From assembly GCF_003815775.1 (NCBI RefSeq), contig NZ_CP033926.1:806001-870000 (forward strand): a stretch of 64,000 nucleotides of DNA, given 5' to 3'. Within the stretch, counting starts at the first letter, position 1, and each line of letters begins with the position of its first letter. The DNA is from Chryseobacterium joostei. Lineage in GTDB: Bacteria; Bacteroidota; Bacteroidia; Flavobacteriales; Weeksellaceae. The position numbers and the translations under genes were made by a program. Below the pieces are notes generated by a model, which searched no databases, was not told where the DNA came from, and saw nothing but the letters and a program-made list of their open reading frames with translations. This document shows, in pieces, positions 8,981 to 19,031 of the stretch.

Positions 8981-9121
8981 AATTTTTTTATCTAATTCAA
9001 ATGTATTGATTTTTTGTTATTGTATTGATGTGTTCATGCAAAATGTATAATAACCATATCATTCATTAATAAATCCAGGGCCTTGGTATAAGATTTGCCG
9101 CTTATGCCTCAAAACCTATTA

Positions 9122-9670
9122 ATGAAAAAGCGACTCTTCTTATATCTTGGTATTCTACTATTCTTTGTTTCTTGTGAAAAAAATAAATCACAAAGTACAA
9201 CATCTTCCAATACCACCATTGAAAGCAAAGTAAATGAGCTTTACACAAAATATGGTAAGTCTAATGATGCTGTTTATAACCAACCTATTCTAGATAAATT
9301 ATTTTCCCAAGATCTAAAAAAGACTTTAGAAAATGCCATTAATGCATCAAAAGCAGATATTGAAAAAGTAAAAAACAGTAATCACCCTGATGAAAAGCCT
9401 TTGCTATTTGAAGGAGCTATTTTTTCCAGTTTATACGAGGGATATACAAGTTATAAAATTCAATCCATTGCGGTGAATGGAAAAACAGCAGATGTAATGG
9501 TTCATTTTGAATATAATATGGCTTCTCCAAAAGTATCATGGGTAGATACAGTACATCTTATTGACTCCGATAAAGGATGGAAAATAGATAACATTACTTT
9601 TGATTCCATAGGGAGTTCCAAGGATCTTAAAGCAAGCCTGATTGAATTTACGAAAAGTATACATGAATAG
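9122..9670 (+). CDS. Lipoprotein of unknown function (DUF3828-like)
   Basis: The ATG at 9122 starts a clean lipoprotein signal (MKKRLFLYLGILLFFVSC, Cys about residue 18); the ATG at 9095 would add nine residues before it. The mature 160-odd residues have a Ser/Thr-rich linker and then a compact domain with KVNELYTKYGKSND, LDKLFSQDLKKTLENAINASKADIE and a repeated-strand C-terminus containing WVDTVHLIDSDKGWKIDNI. The layout resembles DUF3828-type periplasmic lipoproteins, but that match is by eye. It converges on the GG-leader peptide gene and shares its terminator. Confidence 0.65.
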   Translation: MKKRLFLYLGILLFFVSCEKNKSQSTTSSNTTIESKVNELYTKYGKSNDAVYNQPILDKLFSQDLKKTLENAINASKADIEKVKNSNHPDEKPLLFEGAIFSSLYEGYTSYKIQSIAVNGKTADVMVHFEYNMASPKVSWVDTVHLIDSDKGWKIDNITFDSIGSSKDLKASLIEFTKSIHE

Positions 9671-9672
9671 AA

Positions 9673-9697
9673 AAGACCGCTTATAATAAGCGGTCTT
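9673..9697. terminator. Bidirectional terminator between lipoprotein and peptide genes
   Basis: An 11-bp perfect stem (AAGACCGCTTA / TAAGCGGTCTT) with loop TAA lies between two convergent stops and is followed by a T tract on the plus strand. Confidence 0.88.
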
Positions 9698-9705
9698 AAT
9701 TTTTT

Positions 9706-9840
9706 TTATGGACATTGAACGATTGGAATTTCGCTGCAAAAAACTTTGTCTGCCCATTCGCAATACGTACAATATTGTTTTGGTTGCCCTCCGTACACTG
9801 ACTTCAAATCTGTCTTAGTCAGTTTCTTTAAATTTTTCAT
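9706..9840 (-). CDS. GG-leader bacteriocin-like peptide, Cys-rich (44 aa)
   Basis: A short gene found by translating the minus strand. The 44 residues begin MKNLKKLTKTDLKSVYGG, a leader ending in a double glycine at 17-18, followed by a 26-residue core with four cysteines (24, 27, 35, 43) in a CxxC-x7-C-x7-C pattern. The MKNLKKL...L...GG leader is the hallmark of the abundant 'bacteriocin-like' peptide family in Chryseobacterium; double-glycine leaders are normally cut by C39-peptidase ABC exporters. No exporter, immunity or modification gene is adjacent. The stop is 8 nt from a strong terminator. Whether it is toxin, signal or redox peptide is not known. Confidence 0.75.
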   Translation of the reverse strand: MKNLKKLTKTDLKSVYGGQPKQYCTYCEWADKVFCSEIPIVQCP

Positions 9841-10012
9841 ATAGTTTTAATTTATGGTTTGATAAAATTAAAACGAATTATTTTCTGACATATTACAAAT
9901 TTGCCTATTAATTTTACAGAATTTTCATCTATAATATAAAAATAAAACAGATTCTAATATATAACTCAATCAATTAAAGACAGATACGATTTTTTTAAAG
10001 CTTTTTTGAGGG

Positions 10013-10417
10013 TTATCTGTTATGAATCTCCACGGTTACAGGCATTACGTAGGTATAAGCAACCATATTATCACTCATTTTTCTTTGATCTACTCTATAA
10101 TCAAGATCACTTAAAACCGCTTCAATTTCTTTGCTTACGGTTTTGCAATCACCTGTTGAATGAACATTCACGATTTTTCCGTTTTTAGCGATATCAAATT
10201 TCACTACGGAATTGACTGTTCCTTGTCTATATTCAGGATTATCCAGATCAAAGTTTGACATCAATCGAGTTCTGATATCGTTAAAAGTCTCGCTCTTATT
10301 CAGTTGAATTTCCTGGATGGTATTATGATCTGTAGTTTGTGCCTGAGTTGTATTCATTACAGTAGCAAATCCAACAACAAAAAGTGACGCCAATAATATT
10401 TGAATTCTATTTTTCAT
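10013..10417 (-). CDS. Secreted protein with TonB-C-terminal-like domain
   Basis: A 134-residue protein with a Sec signal (MKNRIQILLASLFVVGFATVMNTTQAQ, cleavage near residue 26). The mature domain contains VNSVVKFDIAKNGKIVNVHSTG, the strand-turn-strand signature seen in TonB C-terminal domains, followed by VLSDLDYRVDQRK and a final strand VMPVTVEI. It lacks a membrane anchor and Pro-rich linker, so it is not a full TonB; stand-alone domains of this kind are common in flavobacteria. The partner is unknown. Confidence 0.7.
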   Translation of the reverse strand: MKNRIQILLASLFVVGFATVMNTTQAQTTDHNTIQEIQLNKSETFNDIRTRLMSNFDLDNPEYRQGTVNSVVKFDIAKNGKIVNVHSTGDCKTVSKEIEAVLSDLDYRVDQRKMSDNMVAYTYVMPVTVEIHNR

Positions 10418-10504
10418 AACTAGTTGGTTTTAAATGTTATACTAACCTTATTTTGTATCTCTTACCCAAAGTTATTAAAAATAATTCATATTAAATTCAC
10501 TTTC

Positions 10505-10526
10505 AGTTAACATTGAGTTAACATTA
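10505..10526. promoter_or_regulatory. Direct repeat TTAACA-N5-TTAACA (PhoB/PhoP-like box)
   Basis: AGTTAACATTG at 10505-10515 is repeated as AGTTAACATTA at 10516-10526, an exact one-helix-turn (11-nt) period. TTAACA pairs spaced by 5 nt are the known binding form of Bacillus PhoP and resemble OmpR/PhoB-family sites. It lies between two divergent genes, about 90 nt before the start at 10417 and about 135 nt before the start at 10660. Regulator identity is inferred only. Confidence 0.4.
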
Positions 10527-10659
10527 GAATATAAAATACTAATAATCAATACAATATATTTTAAAAATAATTGAAAATTTAATATTGGAAGCTATTTTAA
10601 CTACAAATTTGAATTTTAAATAAAAACTTAATATTTTAGTAAAAACAATAACTATTTAA

Positions 10660-12612
10660 ATGAAAATTTCAAAAATCAAAATCTCCAAAGAAGAAACAAA
10701 AAAAGTAAATTTAAAAGAAATTGATTTAACTAAAAAACCTTTAGGATCAACAGTTGCTTTGGTTGGGAAAAATGGAGCAGGAAAATCAAGAATTTTAAAA
10801 TTTGTAGAAAACTATTCCTCCTCTATTAATTTTGATAAATTTAATGAGGAACATATCACAAATTTACCATTAAGTTTAATACTTCCTTTTGAAAGTGATC
10901 TAAATCAAGCAAAAGGAATATATGAAAGTCTTATAAAACAAAAAATTTCTCCACAACAGATTAATAATAGCATAACAGATCAATTACAAAGATTTATAAG
11001 AAGATTCTCACAAATTGCTCCTGCTTATATAAAAGTAGTTGACAATGATGATTTAAAAATTATTAAAGATAAAATAAATAATAATTTAGACTTTGAAACA
11101 ATTCTAAAAGGTGATTTTGGAAACATAGACTCTAAAATACCAAATTTAATTGAAAACCCACAAGCTGCTCCATTATCACAATTAAATCAGTTTACAGCTA
11201 TAAACAATAAGACAACTGTTAATTACCTAAAGAAACTATCAACTGAGATAGTGTCTTATGAGTTTAATTTGTATCTGAAAAATAGAGAAAATACTGCCAT
11301 AATTATAGAACAGATGAAAGAAAATGAATCTTATAAATTGTTTAATAATTTTCAAAAATATGTTAAAAAGTTTCTAGGCAAAGATTTTTCATATAGTCAA
11401 ACAGCTGAAGGTGGTACCGTAAATAGTATTTTACATTTTAATAATGAGCCCTTTAATGTTGATTTATTATCTCCTGGGCAAAAAATGTTATTTGCATATG
11501 CCATTCTATTCTTTTATTTAGACACTAATTCAAAGACAAATATTAGAGAAAGTATAATAATTATTGATGAGCCTGAAAAACACTTACACCCCGAAGCACA
11601 GATCAAACTATTAGATGCTCTAAAAGATATTGTAAGTAAAAATGGACAATTATGGATTGCTACCCATTCAGTCCATATTTTATCTCATCTAGACTTCGAT
11701 GAAATTCTAATGGTAAAAGATGATGAAATAATATCACCTTCAAGAACAACACCTGGCAATTCTTTTAATGAATTAATGGGCTTAGAAGAACATGTGATGG
11801 AATTAATATCCTTTATTAATTCTATTTCAGAATGGGCATATAGTAATTTTATGGTTCAATGTTTTAAAGATCCTGAAGTTATTTTTGGAACTAATATTAA
11901 TGATCCTCAATTTAAATTATTTAAAGAGTTTATCCAAAATAAATCAGATATAAAATTACTTGATTTTGGTGCAGGAAAAGGGCGTATCGGCTATACTATT
12001 GGGGAAGATGAGACCGTTTCTGAGAGAATAAAATATAATGCCTATGAAATTGACAAGTCAAATTTTGAACTATTATCAAAAGTTCCTAATTTAGATACAT
12101 TATACTCTACTGCAAATGAAATTCCAAGAAATAACTTCGACTGTATTATTTTGTGTAACGTTCTTCATGAAATAAATCCCGACAATTGGATTGAATCTTT
12201 AAATATAATTAAGGACTCTCTAAATCTCAATGGTTATTTAATTATTATCGAGGATCGATTTTTACCTAAAGGTGAAACAGCTCATGAATATGGATATATC
12301 ATATTAGGGGCTGAGGAAACTAAAATTTTGCTTAACTCTAAGAATTCGATAGAATTAAAACTAAATGAAGCTAATTTTAAAGAAAGAATAATCTTCAATA
12401 CTTTTCAAAAAAATGATATTAGTCCAGATAATGAATCATTGATAAAATCTTTGCAAAAACTTAAAGAAAATACTTTTAATAATATTAAGAAATTAAAGAA
12501 AGAAAAAAAAGATTTAAATCAAGGTAGACGTTTAGCTAATGAAACTCAATTATATATTAATTCACAATTATATTTAGAATCTCTAAATAAAGTTAAAAAG
12601 GGTGAAAGTTAA
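10660..12612 (+). CDS. ABC/AAA-type ATPase fused to SAM methyltransferase (putative defence protein)
   Basis: A 650-residue two-domain protein. Residues 1-350 form an SMC/ABC-type ATPase: Walker A GKNGAGKS (36-43), signature LSPGQ (270-274), Walker B IIIIDE with Glu304, then PEKHLHP and switch His336 in WIATHS. Residues about 425-570 form a class I methyltransferase: motif I LLDFGAGKGRIG (433-444), acidic E463/D465 after strand 2, and ILCNVLHEINP (497-507). The C-terminus is a Lys-rich helix, probably coiled coil. The gene is clearly AT-richer than its neighbours (mostly AAA, AAT, TTA codons), a sign of transfer. It stands alone. OLD/AAA_21-like ATPases are frequent in anti-phage systems, but no function of this fusion is known to me. 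Confidence 0.85.
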   Translation: MKISKIKISKEETKKVNLKEIDLTKKPLGSTVALVGKNGAGKSRILKFVENYSSSINFDKFNEEHITNLPLSLILPFESDLNQAKGIYESLIKQKISPQQINNSITDQLQRFIRRFSQIAPAYIKVVDNDDLKIIKDKINNNLDFETILKGDFGNIDSKIPNLIENPQAAPLSQLNQFTAINNKTTVNYLKKLSTEIVSYEFNLYLKNRENTAIIIEQMKENESYKLFNNFQKYVKKFLGKDFSYSQTAEGGTVNSILHFNNEPFNVDLLSPGQKMLFAYAILFFYLDTNSKTNIRESIIIIDEPEKHLHPEAQIKLLDALKDIVSKNGQLWIATHSVHILSHLDFDEILMVKDDEIISPSRTTPGNSFNELMGLEEHVMELISFINSISEWAYSNFMVQCFKDPEVIFGTNINDPQFKLFKEFIQNKSDIKLLDFGAGKGRIGYTIGEDETVSERIKYNAYEIDKSNFELLSKVPNLDTLYSTANEIPRNNFDCIILCNVLHEINPDNWIESLNIIKDSLNLNGYLIIIEDRFLPKGETAHEYGYIILGAEETKILLNSKNSIELKLNEANFKERIIFNTFQKNDISPDNESLIKSLQKLKENTFNNIKKLKKEKKDLNQGRRLANETQLYINSQLYLESLNKVKKGES

Positions 12613-12637
12613 CTTTCACCCTTTTTAACTTTATTTA
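12584..12637. terminator. 54-bp perfect palindrome acting as shared terminator
   Basis: Bases 12584-12610 are the exact reverse complement of 12611-12637: 27-bp arms with no spacer, centred inside the stop codon of the ATPase-methyltransferase gene. The right end is the stop codon of uvrA on the minus strand. The GC core (GGGTGAAAGTT / AACTTTCACCC) is flanked by A5 and T5, so it can terminate in both directions. It also encodes the last nine residues of the fusion protein. Confidence 0.9.
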
Positions 12638-15466
12638 CTCCAATTCTCTCTTCAAGAACTTTCCTGTTAAGCTTTTCTTAGATTTTATAATTTCCTCAGG
12701 AGTTCCTTGTGCTACGATCTGTCCACCATATTTTCCTCCTTCCGGGCCTACGTCAATGATATGATCTGCTAACTTGATGACATCCATATTATGTTCAATA
12801 ATAATGAATGAGTTTCCTAGCTCTACCAATTGATTAATGGCATCCATCAGGATTTTTACATCTTCAAAGTGAAGTCCTGTGGTAGGTTCATCCAGAATAT
12901 ACAAGGTGTTTCCGGTTTGTCTTTTTGATAATTCTGTTGCCAGCTTAATACGTTGTGCTTCTCCTCCCGAAAGCGTTGTCGACTGCTGTCCCAATGTAAT
13001 GTACCCTAATCCTACATCCTGCAATGTTTTTACCTTTGCAAAAATCTTAGGAATAGGCTGGAAGAAATCCACCGCTTCATCAATGGTCATATCCAATACA
13101 TCGGAAATGGATTTTCCTTTGTAACGTACTTCCAGAGTTTCTCTGTTGAAACGTTTTCCGTTGCAGGTTTCACAATGAACGTATACATCCGGCAGGAAGT
13201 TCATCTCGATTACTTTCAATCCTCCACCCTGACAGGTTTCACATCTTCCTCCTTTTACATTGAAAGAGAATCTTCCAGGTTTGTATCCACGGATTTTACT
13301 TTCCGGTAGTTCTGCAAAAAGATTTCTGATATCTGTAAACATACCTGTGTAAGTTGCCGGATTTGAACGTGGTGTTCTTCCGATCGGAGTCTGGTCAACG
13401 TCTACAATTTTATCTATATTATCAAGTCCTTCAATCTTTTTATAAGGTAAAGGCTCCTGAACTGCTCTGTAGAAATGCTTGTTAAGGATTGGATATAATG
13501 TTCCGTTAATCAGGGAAGATTTTCCACTTCCTGAAATTCCGGTTACTACAACCAGTTTTCCCAAAGGAATATCCAGGGTAACATTTTTAAGGTTGTTTCC
13601 TGTAGCTCCTTTTAACAGGATATTTTTTCCACTACCGACTCTTCTTTCGGCAGGAACTTCAATTTTCCTTTTTCCGTTAATATATTGGGCTGTAATGGTA
13701 TCAGCTTTTAAAAGATCTTTTGGTTTTCCCTGCCAAAGTATCTCGCCTCCAAATTTTCCGGCTCTTGGACCGATATCCAGAACCTCATCAGCTTCCAAAA
13801 TCATATCCTTATCGTGTTCTACCACCAATACTGAGTTTCCGATATCTCTAAGGTTCTTCAATGAATGAATCAGTCTTTCGTTATCTCTTTGGTGAAGCCC
13901 GATACTTGGTTCATCCAGAATATAGAGTACGTTTACCAACTGAGATCCAATCTGTGTTGCCAAACGAATCCTTTGAGACTCTCCTCCTGAAAGGGTCTTG
14001 GAACTTCTGCTCAAACTCAGATAATCTAAACCAACATCTAACAGAAACTGAAGTCTTGTTTCAATTTCCTTTAATATTTCGTGGGCAATGATCTTATTTT
14101 TCTCTGAAAACTTATCTTTAACATCAGCCAGCCAGTCTTTTAGATCCGCCAAGCTTAATCCATTAACCTCAGCAATGTTTTTACCATCGATTTTAAAGCT
14201 TAAGCTTGCCGGCTGAAGACGGGTTCCATTACATTCTGGGCATGTTTCTTCTGTTGTAAAATGTCTTTCCAGCAAAATAGCTTCGTAGGATTCTTTTTCA
14301 TCAATAATTTCTTCCATGAAAGCAATCAAACCATCGAAACTAATTTTTATTTTCTTGGTAATTCCTGCATATTTCAGGTCTTTATTGAATTCTTTGTGAC
14401 ACCCGTTATAGATGTAATCCAAAGCTTCTTCAGGAATATCCTGCAATGGCGTTGTCATTCCCAGTCCGAAGATCTCCAGAATATTTTTTATCTGTGCAAG
14501 GATCCATTTATTCGACTTGATATCTTCCAATGGCAATAATCCTCCCTGATTGATTGATAGTTTTGGATTGTCGATAAAGTAGTCTGTATTGATCTTTTTT
14601 ATTGTTCCCAATCCTTTACAATTCGGACAACTTCCTTTTGGTGAGTTGAAAGAGAATGTATTAGGTTCCGGTAATGCCAGTGAATGCCCTGTTTCTGCAT
14701 CCATCAGGTTTTTGGAGAAATATTCAATATCTGTACTTCCTAACTTCTGAATTCCGATAATTCCTTCTCCCATTTCCATGGCAGTTCGTAAGGATTTTTC
14801 CATTCTGCCTTCGGAAGCGCTTTCCCCGATAATCCAACGATCGATGACAATATCAATATCGTGGGTTTTATAACGGTCAAGTTTTAAATCATATTCAATA
14901 TCCTGCAGCTCACCATCAATTCTTGCCTGTCCGTACCCTTTTTTGGCCATCTGTACGAAAAGTTCGTGGTAATGCCCTTTTCTGGAACGTACAACGGGAG
15001 CCAATAGCATAATCTTTTCTCCTTTATAGTTTCCCTTAATGGTATCAAGGATCTGATCTTCTGTATAGCTTACCAGTTTTTGTCCGGTAGACAAAGAGTA
15101 AGCATCTGAAACTCTTGCATATAAAAGACGTAGGAAATCATACAATTCTGTAACAGTTCCTACGGTAGAACGAGGATTTTTATTGGTTGTTTTCTGCTCG
15201 ATGGCAATAACGGGCGAAAGTCCTTCAATTTTATCTACATCAGGACGTTCCAATCCACCCAAAAACTGACGTGCATAGGCAGAAAAGGTTTCTATATAAC
15301 GACGTTGGCCTTCTGCAAAAATGGTATCGAATGCCAATGAAGACTTTCCACTTCCGGAAAGCCCGGTAATTACAACCAGTTCGTTACGCGGAATTTTAAC
15401 ATTAATATTCTTTAGATTGTGTTCACGTGCTCCGTAAACTTCTATATATTCTGTTGATTTGCTCAT
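12635..15466 (-). CDS. uvrA: UvrABC excinuclease subunit A
   Basis: A 943-residue damage-recognition ATPase of nucleotide excision repair, which loads UvrB on lesions. Both ABC cassettes are complete: Walker A GLSGSGKS at 35-42 and GISGSGKS near residue 645; signatures LSGGESQR and LSGGEAQR; Walker [14 protein letters not shown] and [13 protein letters not shown]. Zinc-binding Cys clusters are visible in [16 protein letters not shown], and the pair CETCQGGG / CETCNGKR. Length and order are normal. It converges on the fusion gene, with the 54-bp palindrome between. Confidence 0.98.
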
Positions 15467-15501
15467 AATTTGGAGTGACTTTGCCTGAAAATCACAACGT
15501 G

Positions 15502-15509
15502 CAAAAATA
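15502..15509 (-). promoter_or_regulatory. -7 box for uvrA
   Basis: CAAAAATA on the plus strand equals TATTTTTG on the minus strand, 36-43 nt before the uvrA start. No -33 TTG at the ideal distance. Confidence 0.5.
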
Positions 15510-15639
15510 CGGAATTTTATGGAATTTTTTTTATTATAAGGGGTATAAAAATTTCATAAAAAAGACTTTGCTTTTCTCAAGGGACGTTTTTAAACTCTAA
15601 TTTTTATAGAGGGTTAGCTGTAGGGCTTGCTATTAGGTT

Positions 15640-15653
15640 TTGGCTTTAGCCAA
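15640..15653. repeat. Small hairpin sharing GGCTTTAGCC with next terminator
   Basis: TTGGCT-TT-AGCCAA is a 6-bp stem. The same GGCTTTAGCC core forms the centre of the terminator 20 bases further on, suggesting a short interspersed palindromic unit in the uvrA-bla gap. Confidence 0.5.
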
Positions 15654-15673
15654 TGGATTATTTCTATATAAAA

Positions 15674-15693
15674 AAACGGGCTTTAGCCCGTTT
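15674..15693 (-). terminator. Terminator of the beta-lactamase gene
   Basis: A 9-bp stem (AAACGGGCT / AGCCCGTTT, loop TT) lies 10 nt past the minus-strand bla stop with a T tract following on the minus strand. Confidence 0.85.
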
Positions 15694-15702
15694 CTATTGA
15701 AT

Positions 15703-16593
15703 TTATTTTTTGTTTGTATAATATTCCCAAACTGCATGACTAATGTCTGCAATAATTTTTTCTGTGACTGCCATTTCTTCATTAATGTTCTTCAGATATA
15801 CTGAAAGAATAAAATGTTTCCCGTTGGTTAGCTTTACAATTCCTACGTCATTCATTGCTGCTCGTAGATTATTTTCATTTCTACTGGAGATTCCTGTTCT
15901 ATGTGCCAGCTCTGTTCCGGCGGGCAGACCGGCCTTCATCCAGGTCAACCCTCTTGAGGTTTCTACCATGATCTGATATAGATATTTTGTGGTTTCTTTT
16001 TTCAAAACCTTTCCCTTATAGAATTTTTCTAAGAGATCTGTGGTGGCTAAAGGTGTTGTGGTGTTCAGATAGAATTTATCAAAGGAAGACATTTGCTGTT
16101 CGTTCACTTTTATAGTAAAATCCTTTATTCCTTGTTGATTAATGAATTTTTGAACAGAGTCTGTTCCTCCAATAATATTGAGCAAAATATCACAACCATT
16201 ATTATCACTGTGAGAAACTGTATATCTTAATAACTGATCTAGTGTCAGGTACATATTCCCTTCAGGATATTCTTCTCTGATTGGGCTCCATGTTTCTGGC
16301 ATCAGATCTTCTTTTTTAATGAAAAACTTCTGGTTAAGCTTTAATTTTCCTTTATCAACTCTATTTAAGACTGCTAATGCAATATGGAATTTGAAAACAC
16401 TCATCAGCGGAGTTTCCTTGTTTCCGTTAATGCTAAGCGTATCTTTATCTTCTATTCCCTTTACAGATATTCCTACAGTGGCGTTTTTTGTTGATGTAAT
16501 TGTATTGATCTTATTTCTTAAATCTTGTATTGTCTGGCTTTTTACTTGAAGGCTAAAAAGACAAAGTGATATAAAAAGTGAAGCTTTTTTCAT
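15703..16593 (-). CDS. bla: Class A beta-lactamase, subclass A2 (CIA/CGA/VEB/PER-like)
   Basis: A 296-residue secreted serine beta-lactamase that hydrolyses beta-lactams in the periplasm. A signal peptide covers about residues 1-19. The nucleophile motif S-V-F-K is at 65-68 and SDN at 129-131. The omega-loop region reads NEQQMSS..YLNTTTP, which is like VEB/PER-type NE-x-QM...YQNW. The third motif is HRTG instead of KTG, a conservative Lys-to-Arg change. The C-terminus ISHAVWEYYTNKK resembles VEB. These features place it with the A2 enzymes resident in Chryseobacterium chromosomes. There is no mobile element next to it, so it is probably intrinsic. The spectrum cannot be read from sequence. 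Confidence 0.92.
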   Translation of the reverse strand: MKKASLFISLCLFSLQVKSQTIQDLRNKINTITSTKNATVGISVKGIEDKDTLSINGNKETPLMSVFKFHIALAVLNRVDKGKLKLNQKFFIKKEDLMPETWSPIREEYPEGNMYLTLDQLLRYTVSHSDNNGCDILLNIIGGTDSVQKFINQQGIKDFTIKVNEQQMSSFDKFYLNTTTPLATTDLLEKFYKGKVLKKETTKYLYQIMVETSRGLTWMKAGLPAGTELAHRTGISSRNENNLRAAMNDVGIVKLTNGKHFILSVYLKNINEEMAVTEKIIADISHAVWEYYTNKK

Positions 16594-16683: not shown

Positions 16684-18567
16684 CTACATATCCTGGAATT
16701 CAATATCCTCGTTACTTACTTTCACAAGATATTCTATACCATCTATAGCTTTGGCAATAATCTGATTTCTTGTAATATTCGCCATGTTTTCCCAGTAAGC
16801 TCTTCCGTAGAAAGAATAGTTCTGTGGAATGATTTCTACCTCAACGGTTCTTACAAAACCTTCCTTAGGTTTGTTGCTGATCATGGTTCCTCTTCTTACT
16901 CTTACTTCTCTTAGCTCATCTTTCAGTACCATTCGGCAATAATTTTTAACGTCTTCAAGGGAAATAATTTTATCTCTTGTTGTTAAAGCATATTTATAGG
17001 CCTGTATACTGTCTGTACCTTTCTGTTCTTCGGCTCCGCCCAAGGTTTCAGTAAGCAGAACAACGGTCTGTGACTTCAACTGGTTGGAAAGCTCTGTTCC
17101 CGGACGCATATGATTGGCTAGTGTACAATGAGTGATCCAAAAAGCAGCGTAGGTATGGTCTGTTTTTTCTACAGGTTCCATAATTACATAGTTCAGTTCC
17201 TGTCTGATGTTTCTTTTGGCATTATTCACTTTTTGCACCATAGATTTCATCTTGTCAGACATTTCGCTAAGAACGCCTTTTACATTATCCCTGTTTAAAA
17301 GAGAGAATGCTGCAATTTCGTCTCTTGTCAGCTCCAAAACATTGGCGATCATATCTACCGCATTTCTGTTGGTGAAACGTTCCATTCCTCCTTTTCTTAC
17401 GGTATACAATCCTTTTTTAAGATCATCGGCCGGAGTAAATGGGATCTCTGTGTATCTTCTTCCATCTCCATCCTGTACTTCATCTACGTATAGGAAATGT
17501 TCTCCTTCATCGGTTACTAAAGGAATATTATTTCCCATAATGTCAAGGCTATACTCTGTTTTTTTCCAACCTCTGTTATAAACCGGGAAGGCATTCAGTA
17601 CAAATGAGAAATTATCAAGAATTTCTGCTGAGAACTGTGGTGGGAATTCAAAGGTAAGCCATAGGTAACACTTGTTATCTAGATATTTTATAATCTCTTC
17701 TTTTCCTACAAGGAAATCCAGATTCTGCGGAAGCTGTCCGGGTTCTGAAAACAAACTGCTGGAAAGCCCTGTAATTTCAATAAATTTATGACGATAAATA
17801 CTTTTGATATCTTCAATAACTTTATTTCTGATAGATTGCTCCTTGAACATCTGCTCATATCCATCCGGATTGCTTTCTGTAAGATAACTTAGCCCTTCTC
17901 TTACAAATAAAGGATTCCCATTACTTGATACGGTAATATAAGGCAATAATTTATATACAAAATCCAAATGTTCAAAAGCAGGATTGGAACAAAATACACT
18001 CATGTATTTAGGAAAGTTCTCACTTGCATATTTACTTACATCTACTCCTACTGTAATCTTTCTGTAGTCTTCAGGTCTTCCGTTAAATCTAGCAATAGGA
18101 ATTTTATTAAACCTGTCATCAATACTATAACAGGTATTTCCTACAAACATTACTGAAGTGTGAACTTTATTAATTCTTACATTCCCCACAGGAGTGAAAG
18201 GAATATTCACTTGTTTATCTGATTCTGATTTTACAGTGGAGGTCATCTGCTTACGGAAGAAAAACTCCGTATGCTCCAACAATACTTCGGTAGACTCATA
18301 AGGCTGTGTAAAGGCAACAGCATGAGCAGGAATAGGATGAGTATAGATGGATGGGGTCAACAATTTTGCCAGTTTTTCTAGAATTCGGGCATTTACTGTC
18401 TGTATTTCATTATTCGCTTTAAAAACTTCTGTACTGAATGCGTCTATCAATAACTTTACAAACGGATCCAAAGACTGTGGACTCTTCAATCCCCAGACCT
18501 TAGTTGCATTCTGCAGCATTCTTGCTTTTACAGATTCTTTAGAATAAATATTCTGATCTAAATTCAT
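16684..18567 (-). CDS. tssF: Type VI secretion baseplate subunit TssF-like
   Basis: A 627-residue protein resembling the TssF/VasA baseplate wedge of the Bacteroidota T6SS (subtype iii). Recognisable features are an N-terminal helical region with VKARMLQNATKVWGLKSPQSLDPFVKLLIDAFSTEV, an ARILEKLAKLLTPS motif (family: residues where the wedge binds TssG), a beta-rich middle, and a C-terminal part with TTRDKIISLEDVKNYCR like phage baseplate J proteins. It starts 23 nt after the TssE stop, so the two baseplate genes form one unit. No other T6SS gene is near. The call is by pattern, with good context from TssE. Confidence 0.78.
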   Translation of the reverse strand: MNLDQNIYSKESVKARMLQNATKVWGLKSPQSLDPFVKLLIDAFSTEVFKANNEIQTVNARILEKLAKLLTPSIYTHPIPAHAVAFTQPYESTEVLLEHTEFFFRKQMTSTVKSESDKQVNIPFTPVGNVRINKVHTSVMFVGNTCYSIDDRFNKIPIARFNGRPEDYRKITVGVDVSKYASENFPKYMSVFCSNPAFEHLDFVYKLLPYITVSSNGNPLFVREGLSYLTESNPDGYEQMFKEQSIRNKVIEDIKSIYRHKFIEITGLSSSLFSEPGQLPQNLDFLVGKEEIIKYLDNKCYLWLTFEFPPQFSAEILDNFSFVLNAFPVYNRGWKKTEYSLDIMGNNIPLVTDEGEHFLYVDEVQDGDGRRYTEIPFTPADDLKKGLYTVRKGGMERFTNRNAVDMIANVLELTRDEIAAFSLLNRDNVKGVLSEMSDKMKSMVQKVNNAKRNIRQELNYVIMEPVEKTDHTYAAFWITHCTLANHMRPGTELSNQLKSQTVVLLTETLGGAEEQKGTDSIQAYKYALTTRDKIISLEDVKNYCRMVLKDELREVRVRRGTMISNKPKEGFVRTVEVEIIPQNYSFYGRAYWENMANITRNQIIAKAIDGIEYLVKVSNEDIEFQDM

Positions 18568-18590
18568 AATTTCTTTTGCGGTTAAAAATA

Positions 18591-19031
18591 TTAATCAATA
18601 GACATCGGGCTCAGGAACAGTTCCGTTGAAAAACTGAAACGCTCTCCTGTTTCCTCCATCTTGGCATTGATGGCAATTCTTACTTTCTTTTTGATTTCGG
18701 TGTGTTCTTTTGTATCGTAGCTGTGTTCTACAAATTGTATGTTGGCATCGATCTGCGGTTGTACAATGCGAGGTTCATACTCCTGGATCTGTCTTTTAAG
18801 ACTTTTGACAAAAACGTTTTCCCAGATGGCACTTGTTACTCCATTATCGAATTCCAAGTTCCAAACGTCGTTTCCATAGTTTTCATCATATCTGTTCTCT
18901 CCTTTTTTGGTGGTGATCAGCAGCATAATATTGTGGGCAATACTTTCCCCCATATCGCAGGTATCGATACTTCCTCCTTCGGTCATTAGAGTAGATGGCA
19001 CGAAAGGCATTCTGTAATTTGGTGTATCCAT
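18591..19031 (-). CDS. tssE: Type VI secretion baseplate subunit TssE (gp25-like)
   Basis: A 146-residue GPW/gp25-fold protein, homologous to phage T4 baseplate gp25, which nucleates sheath assembly. Visible features are IAHNIMLLITTKKGENRYDENYGNDVWNLEFDNG, where the gp25 family has a start of repeats followed by R..FG.D..., and a later FVKSLKRQIQEYEPRI matching the family E-P-R-(I/V) motif. It is the first gene of a two-gene operon with tssF, bounded by terminators on both sides. Confidence 0.82.
   Translation of the reverse strand: MDTPNYRMPFVPSTLMTEGGSIDTCDMGESIAHNIMLLITTKKGENRYDENYGNDVWNLEFDNGVTSAIWENVFVKSLKRQIQEYEPRIVQPQIDANIQFVEHSYDTKEHTEIKKKVRIAINAKMEETGERFSFSTELFLSPMSID

Follow-up and report, generated by a model that had tools for sequence, protein, structure and literature searches.

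A candidate mobile anti-phage protein fusing an OLD/PtuA-type ABC ATPase to a SAM-dependent methyltransferase in Chryseobacterium joostei

A gene of Chryseobacterium joostei encodes, in one chain, an ABC ATPase of the OLD/PtuA type followed by a class I SAM-dependent methyltransferase. On balance we favor the reading that the product is a mobile anti-phage defense protein, in which the ATPase would serve as the sensor and gate the methyltransferase as effector. The observed basis for this reading consists of the two domains, their conserved motifs, the steadiness of the fusion, its mobility as a single gene, and the defense genes found beside some of its relatives. The fusion is described nowhere in the open-access literature searched and is probably an undescribed kind of defense protein. 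The gene lies in a stretch of 64,000 nucleotides, here called the window, to which coordinates refer unless a locus is named.

Domain structure and motifs

10660..12612, + strand: whole gene for the 650-aa ATPase-methyltransferase fusion; reading frame open, ATG start
10660..11784, + strand: PtuA/OLD-type ABC ATPase domain, residues 1-375
10765..10788, + strand: Walker A, GKNGAGKS, residues 36-43
11467..11481, + strand: ABC signature, LSPGQ, residues 270-274
11566..11571, + strand: Walker B, Asp303-Glu304
11665..11667, + strand: switch His336
11881..12417, + strand: class I SAM methyltransferase domain, residues ~408-586
11956..11982, + strand: SAM-binding motif I, LLDFGAGKG, residues 433-441
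12148..12174, + strand: motif IV region, ILCNVLHEI, residues 497-505
12430..12606, + strand: C-terminal helical pair, residues 591-649, with invariant Asn634 (DSSP of structure models)

An earlier note on this DNA, made from the letters alone, had claimed an ATPase and a SAM methyltransferase in one intact chain. Both domains are real by Pfam and by structure comparison: AAA_15 and AAA_21 match residues 1-342 (E ~1e-13) and Methyltransf_23 matches residues 424-573 (E 1.5e-6), all above cut-off. The motif positions that it gave (36-43, 270-274, E304, H336, 433-441, and 497-505) are exact, and the key residues are invariant; in an alignment of 117 sequences that includes the window's own protein, these comprise G36, G39, G41, K42, S271, G273, D303, E304, and H336 in the ATPase half and G437, G439, R442, H503, E504, G525, E531, G538, E539, G545, and N634 in the C-terminal half.

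The ATPase half carries all the hallmarks of an ABC/OLD-type enzyme (Walker A, signature, Walker B with the catalytic Glu, and switch His) and has the fold of the PtuA proteins of Septu and retrons. Its top PADLOC matches are anti-phage ATPases, namely AbiLi (7.5e-20), PtuA (1.4e-18), and AriA (5.9e-18); the Old profile also matches. Identity as an ABC transporter was rejected, transporter matches in NCBIfam and the PDB being limited to short ATP-binding segments.

Structural and profile comparison of both halves, which the earlier note had proposed as a check, finds the C-terminal domain to be a methyltransferase, with a Rossmann fold, a glycine-rich SAM motif I, and cleft residues that are invariant in the family. 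Its best structural and sequence matches are enzymes that act on small molecules, tRNA, peptides, or carrier-bound substrates; the closest folds include those of METTL6, a tRNA m3C enzyme, and of natural-product methyltransferases. We do not claim His503 and Glu531 as a His-Glu catalytic dyad, the dyad residues being four apart in a published methyltransferase (excerpt of PMC9821293). The structure model of the chain has a pTM of 0.62, at which the relative placement of the domains is not firm.

These features bear on whether the protein acts in the manner of restriction-modification, with the methyltransferase marking self DNA and an ATPase complex blocking unmarked DNA. A few relatives do lie inside or adjoin restriction-modification loci, but none of the 63 aligned target rows has a DNA-methyltransferase motif of the [DNS]PP[YFW] or PCQ type, the best methyltransferase matches act on the other substrates named above, and Pfam finds no nuclease domain in the chain. 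Identity as a DNA methylase was rejected on the motif evidence, and we regard a restriction-modification-like role as very improbable.

Acquisition beside uvrA

10600..12631, + strand: inserted segment, comprising the gene with ~60 bp of upstream and 19 bp of downstream DNA (delimited by blastn comparison with four empty sites of the genus)
12586..12635, no strand assigned: palindrome, each arm 25 bp long, that spans the gene's stop codon (by eye)

The gene has a GC content of 26.1% and a third-position GC content of 16%, the lowest among the 49 window ORFs of at least 150 aa (medians 37% and 30.5%). Its downstream neighbor at 12635-15466 on the minus strand is uvrA (NCBIfam 1348.6 bits, cut-off 1147). 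In blastn comparison with four empty sites of the same genus, the left flank is conserved up to 10589-10600 and the right flank from 12632-12636; other sequence lies between the flanks at these sites (133 bp in L103, 59 bp in L107, 242 bp in L104, and 714 bp in L106). Because the flanks align at all four, the insert is essentially the fusion gene alone. The fusion is missing from all 15 same-genus loci that have the left-hand neighbor, 13 of which carry uvrA in the fetched stretch, and the 35 other same-genus genomes yield no full-length match, their matches being short ATPase segments.

The earlier note had argued for transfer from a base composition unlike that of the adjoining uvrA; with the lowest GC of 49 ORFs, the empty sites, and a sparse family, this argument holds, and the window gene is horizontally acquired. 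The 50-base palindrome at 12586-12635 lies between the converging genes and is probably a two-way terminator shared with uvrA; Rfam gives only sub-threshold matches there.

In this genus the uvrA junction is a site of frequent small insertions: it carries small variable genes in L105, L106, L108, L109, and L116, with a 199-aa family present in both L106 and L108. A dense defense hot spot at the junction was considered and rejected, same-genus junctions being empty or holding small other genes. A distant copy in Aliarcobacter (L040) also adjoins uvrA (L040:12116-14932; NCBIfam 1386 bits), probably by coincidence. Type VI secretion genes lie at 16684-19031 of the window and encode TssF (E 1.9e-19) and a gp25/TssE-like baseplate protein (E 5.4e-10).

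Distribution of the family

One protein search returned 186 relatives. The same two-domain chain, which the earlier note had suggested looking for in other genomes, was sought by scanning one-genome-per-species contigs for two peptide patterns, and 61 complete fusions were found besides the window copy, in a census that depends on two short patterns, many metagenome bins, and mechanical ORF calls. The scan gave 79 loci, 62 of which have a frame of 560-900 aa, and one of the 62 (L076) lacks the methyltransferase; the other 17 comprise partial matches, other ATPases, copies cut by contig ends, and broken copies, among them L077 and L078. Key residues are conserved in the 61 loci, which span at least five phyla (Bacteroidota, Pseudomonadota, Campylobacterota, Bacillota, and Planctomycetota) plus one bin labeled Patescibacteria.

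The fusion is sparsely distributed. It occurs in two of 395 genomes drawn from Bacteroidota, namely that of the window and a second from its family whose copy is 64% identical, and in three of 392 genomes from the order of a Lachnospiraceae member, that member's genome counted. In 54 of 58 loci the AT content of the fusion gene exceeds that of the remaining locus (median difference 7.3 points), and in 31 of 54 the gene is the lowest-GC ORF, against 4.7 expected by chance; the low GC may be due in part to the abundance of Lys, Asn, and Ile in the protein.

A profile search with the methyltransferase domain gave 248 proteins, and almost all of the 120 matches listed are fusions. Eleven of the 120 have no ATPase Pfam domain; nine of these were read (P0190 and P0207 being the other two), of which eight start within the linker or the end of the ATPase and the ninth starts a little ahead of the methyltransferase domain. 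The short matches look like truncated fusions, and the nine include no convincing free-standing methyltransferase, in a search that reaches only relatives sharing short exact words. Phage records hold no match to the window protein, plasmid records hold ATPase-only matches to it (seven records), and viral contigs hold matches at no fewer than seven loci, ATPase-only among those listed. Carriage as plasmid or phage cargo was rejected, the whole fusion not being found in the phage or plasmid records searched with the window protein.

Several members deserve separate mention. The closest same-family copy (L124:4393-13589) lies near a DNA polymerase IV-like gene and, by eye, near regulator-like and recombinase-like genes, which suggests a mobile stretch. 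Two variants (L140:7331-9802 and L141:7338-9356) appear by eye to have an ATPase of reduced length and to end in a tetratricopeptide-like extension. HD-domain proteins are encoded shortly downstream, on the same strand, of two deep-branching members (L067:11347-14145 and L072:4741-7011) and are 31% identical to each other over 97 columns.

Gene neighborhoods

At the window copy, nine of the ten surrounding genes have no PADLOC match and the tenth, uvrA, has generic ATPase-type matches only; judged by eye, most copies of the fusion, the window's included, lie among housekeeping genes. The relatives are not confined to such places, and the link to defense that the earlier note had drawn stands for some of them and is weaker at the window copy and at most others: at least ten of the 61 loci have restriction-modification or dCTP deaminase genes within three genes of the fusion, with further PADLOC matches not assigned to loci. 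A type IIG enzyme lies immediately upstream of the fusion in L030, HsdM and HsdS lie downstream in L034, and PDC-S26 and a type II methylase lie downstream in L027; weaker cases are SoFic in L068, a restriction-enzyme-like match in L035, and a ResIII protein in L029. In L141, which is outside the 61, the fusion variant starts ~15 bp after hsdR by its called start, in a type I operon that also has hsdS, the end of an hsdM, and a nucleotidyltransferase-like gene.

For a broader comparison, the 194 neighbors within three genes and 3 kb were set against a control of 125 of the 232 eligible proteins more than 6 kb away in the same loci, in terms of family counts and not gene counts. Near the fusion, the PADLOC families at E 1e-25 (best 25 of 71 and best 25 of 46 families) include dCTPase, with six members, type I, II, and IIG restriction-modification, SoFic, and candidate families such as PDC-S26; mad3, RTasRmuC, RTasHel, and GajB were also matched. 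Among the best 25 of 31 families in the control, restriction-modification and dCTPase are both absent; those matched include UvrD/GajB, RecD, a phospholipase effector, mad3, RTasHel, PDC-S68, and PDC-S11.

Several models of the PADLOC version used (2023) match housekeeping ATPases, and mad3, mad8, and RTasRmuC match housekeeping UvrA or RmuC so strongly (UvrA matches mad3 at 1.4e-90, and the RTasRmuC match is explained by an RmuC-family protein in L062) that defense is overcalled in neighborhood scans. The near matches to mad3, RTasRmuC, RTasHel, and GajB are accordingly poor evidence of defense, because housekeeping UvrA and RmuC match the mad3 and RTasRmuC models and because mad3, RTasHel, and GajB also occur in the far control.

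The housekeeping surroundings of many solitary copies, together with the likeness in fold to METTL6 and natural-product methyltransferases, would suit an accessory enzyme of repair, tRNA modification, or metabolite modification that has spread by transfer and has no part in defense. We consider this unlikely, since sparseness, clean insertion of a single gene, AT bias, and recurrent defense neighbors fit defense better, and neighbor clustering finds no metabolic partner at a fixed place. For the window's clade, clustering of families present in at least three loci likewise finds no partner at a fixed place.

Pairing with a dCTP deaminase

In one clade of seven rows (support 95/98) the fusion has a steady partner. 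A deaminase adjoins it, divergently transcribed, in L046, L057, L061, L066, L069, and L071, and these six loci together with L052 make up the clade; L052, with only 256 bp upstream on its contig, was excluded, and the divergent AvcD-like deaminase is thus present in six of six testable intact rows, from Bacillota and one Muribaculaceae. The four deaminases tested match the PADLOC dCTPase model at E 8e-99 to 2e-159. Of two broken fusion copies in Lachnospiraceae, L077 still adjoins a deaminase and L078 has no deaminase match; the sister rows L063 and L067 have none either, and in L059 a deaminase of 26.7% identity lies three genes off on the same strand. The phrase "single-gene system" in the earlier note therefore suits the window's clade, where the insert is the gene alone, but not this one.

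The AvcD protein of the AvcID system is held in check by an RNA, AvcI, which is lost once phage inhibit host transcription (excerpt of PMC10511110). In L066, L069, and L071 only 65-70 bp separate the called starts of deaminase and fusion, so that an RNA would hardly fit upstream of the deaminase, and Rfam finds no known RNA beside the pair at gathering scores in six loci. A tentative and bolder proposal is that the OLD/PtuA-type ATPase gates a new class of effector, a methyltransferase that is neither a nuclease nor directed at DNA, and that in gut Bacillota the fusion controls the AvcD-like deaminase, perhaps replacing the AvcI RNA antitoxin; that replacement is speculation.

A related possibility, to which we give a low probability, is that the fusion is a guard or regulator that polices or controls another defense gene (restriction-modification or dCTP deaminase) instead of sensing phage itself, as PrrC, RloC, and PARIS do. 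The L141 variant placed directly after hsdR and the deaminase pairing in all six testable rows point this way, and the AriA protein of PARIS detects Ocr, which inhibits restriction (excerpt of PMC12839542). Most copies, the window's among them, nevertheless have no such partner nearby, and neither the broken L078 nor the two sister rows have a deaminase. A full-length dCTPase is likewise missing from the window's genome, where the one match is a deaminase-like frame of 143 aa that aligns to 65 positions of the model.

Comparison with known defense systems

The fusion lacks defining features of Septu, retrons, PARIS/OLD, MADS, and restriction-modification. Its likeness to Septu and to the PtuA of retrons Ec78, Ec83, and Eco7 is the N-terminal ABC ATPase fold (residues 1-375); it differs in having a methyltransferase in the same chain, and it scores 45.8 bits against the NCBIfam PtuA model (retron Ec78 type), far below the cut-off of 500. 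Among the ten genes around the fusion, PADLOC finds no PtuB HNH nuclease and no reverse transcriptase, and positions 9000-16000 hold no retron RNA, only sub-threshold Rfam matches to other families.

With PARIS (AriA/AriB) and OLD nucleases the fusion shares an OLD-type ABC ATPase as the likely sensor, matching the AriA and Old profiles; their effector is a TOPRIM nuclease, whereas the fusion has a class I methyltransferase, Pfam detects no TOPRIM in the chain, and PADLOC finds no AriB among the same ten genes. PrrC and RloC join an ABC-type ATPase to a C-terminal anticodon nuclease at restriction-modification loci. The fusion resembles them in linking such an ATPase to a C-terminal effector and in occurring, in some relatives, at such loci; it differs in the effector, and no PrrC or RloC profile is among the best 25 of its 112 PADLOC matches.

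MADS also combines an ATPase (Mad3) with a methylase (Mad2) in defense, and the Mad3 profile matches the fusion, but the score of 42.6 bits is well below the cut-off of 420; in MADS the methylase acts on DNA and has a gene of its own. As for AvcID, a relative of AvcD is the divergent neighbor in one fusion clade, but the window locus has no deaminase and the fusion itself is not one. Having neither a DNA-methyltransferase motif in 63 rows nor a nuclease domain, the fusion also falls outside the definition of restriction-modification.

Proposed function and significance

The ATPase would dimerize head-to-head in the usual ABC manner, and the dimer would keep the methyltransferase at its C-terminus inactive. 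A signal of infection, for example changed DNA ends, altered nucleotide pools, or an anti-restriction protein, may alter the ATP cycle; the released methyltransferase would then methylate a target other than DNA (a small molecule, tRNA, or protein), and this methylation would arrest the infected cell or block the phage. An infection-gated methyltransferase is the likeliest reading because a defense-type ATPase, a conserved non-DNA methyltransferase, mobility, and some defense neighbors come together. Against it stand the lack of defense genes near the window copy, the housekeeping-like neighbors of most relatives, and the lack of a match in phage records. The earlier note had proposed an undescribed single-gene anti-phage system; the kind of ATPase, the mobility, and some of the neighbors favor that proposal, most loci look like housekeeping ones, and the anti-phage role is predicted.

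In BREX and related systems, a pervasive association of OLD-ABC ATPases with nucleases has been reported (excerpt of PMC12839542). Judged from sequence, the novelty here is a predicted methyltransferase in the effector place that a nuclease or TOPRIM domain usually takes beside a defense-type ATPase. The clade paired with a deaminase makes the effector idea directly testable as a two-gene system. If the reading is true, the same sensor engine drives quite different chemistry, through a fused and conserved methyltransferase effector, across several phyla, and a new question would arise, namely which molecule a cell can methylate to stop a phage.
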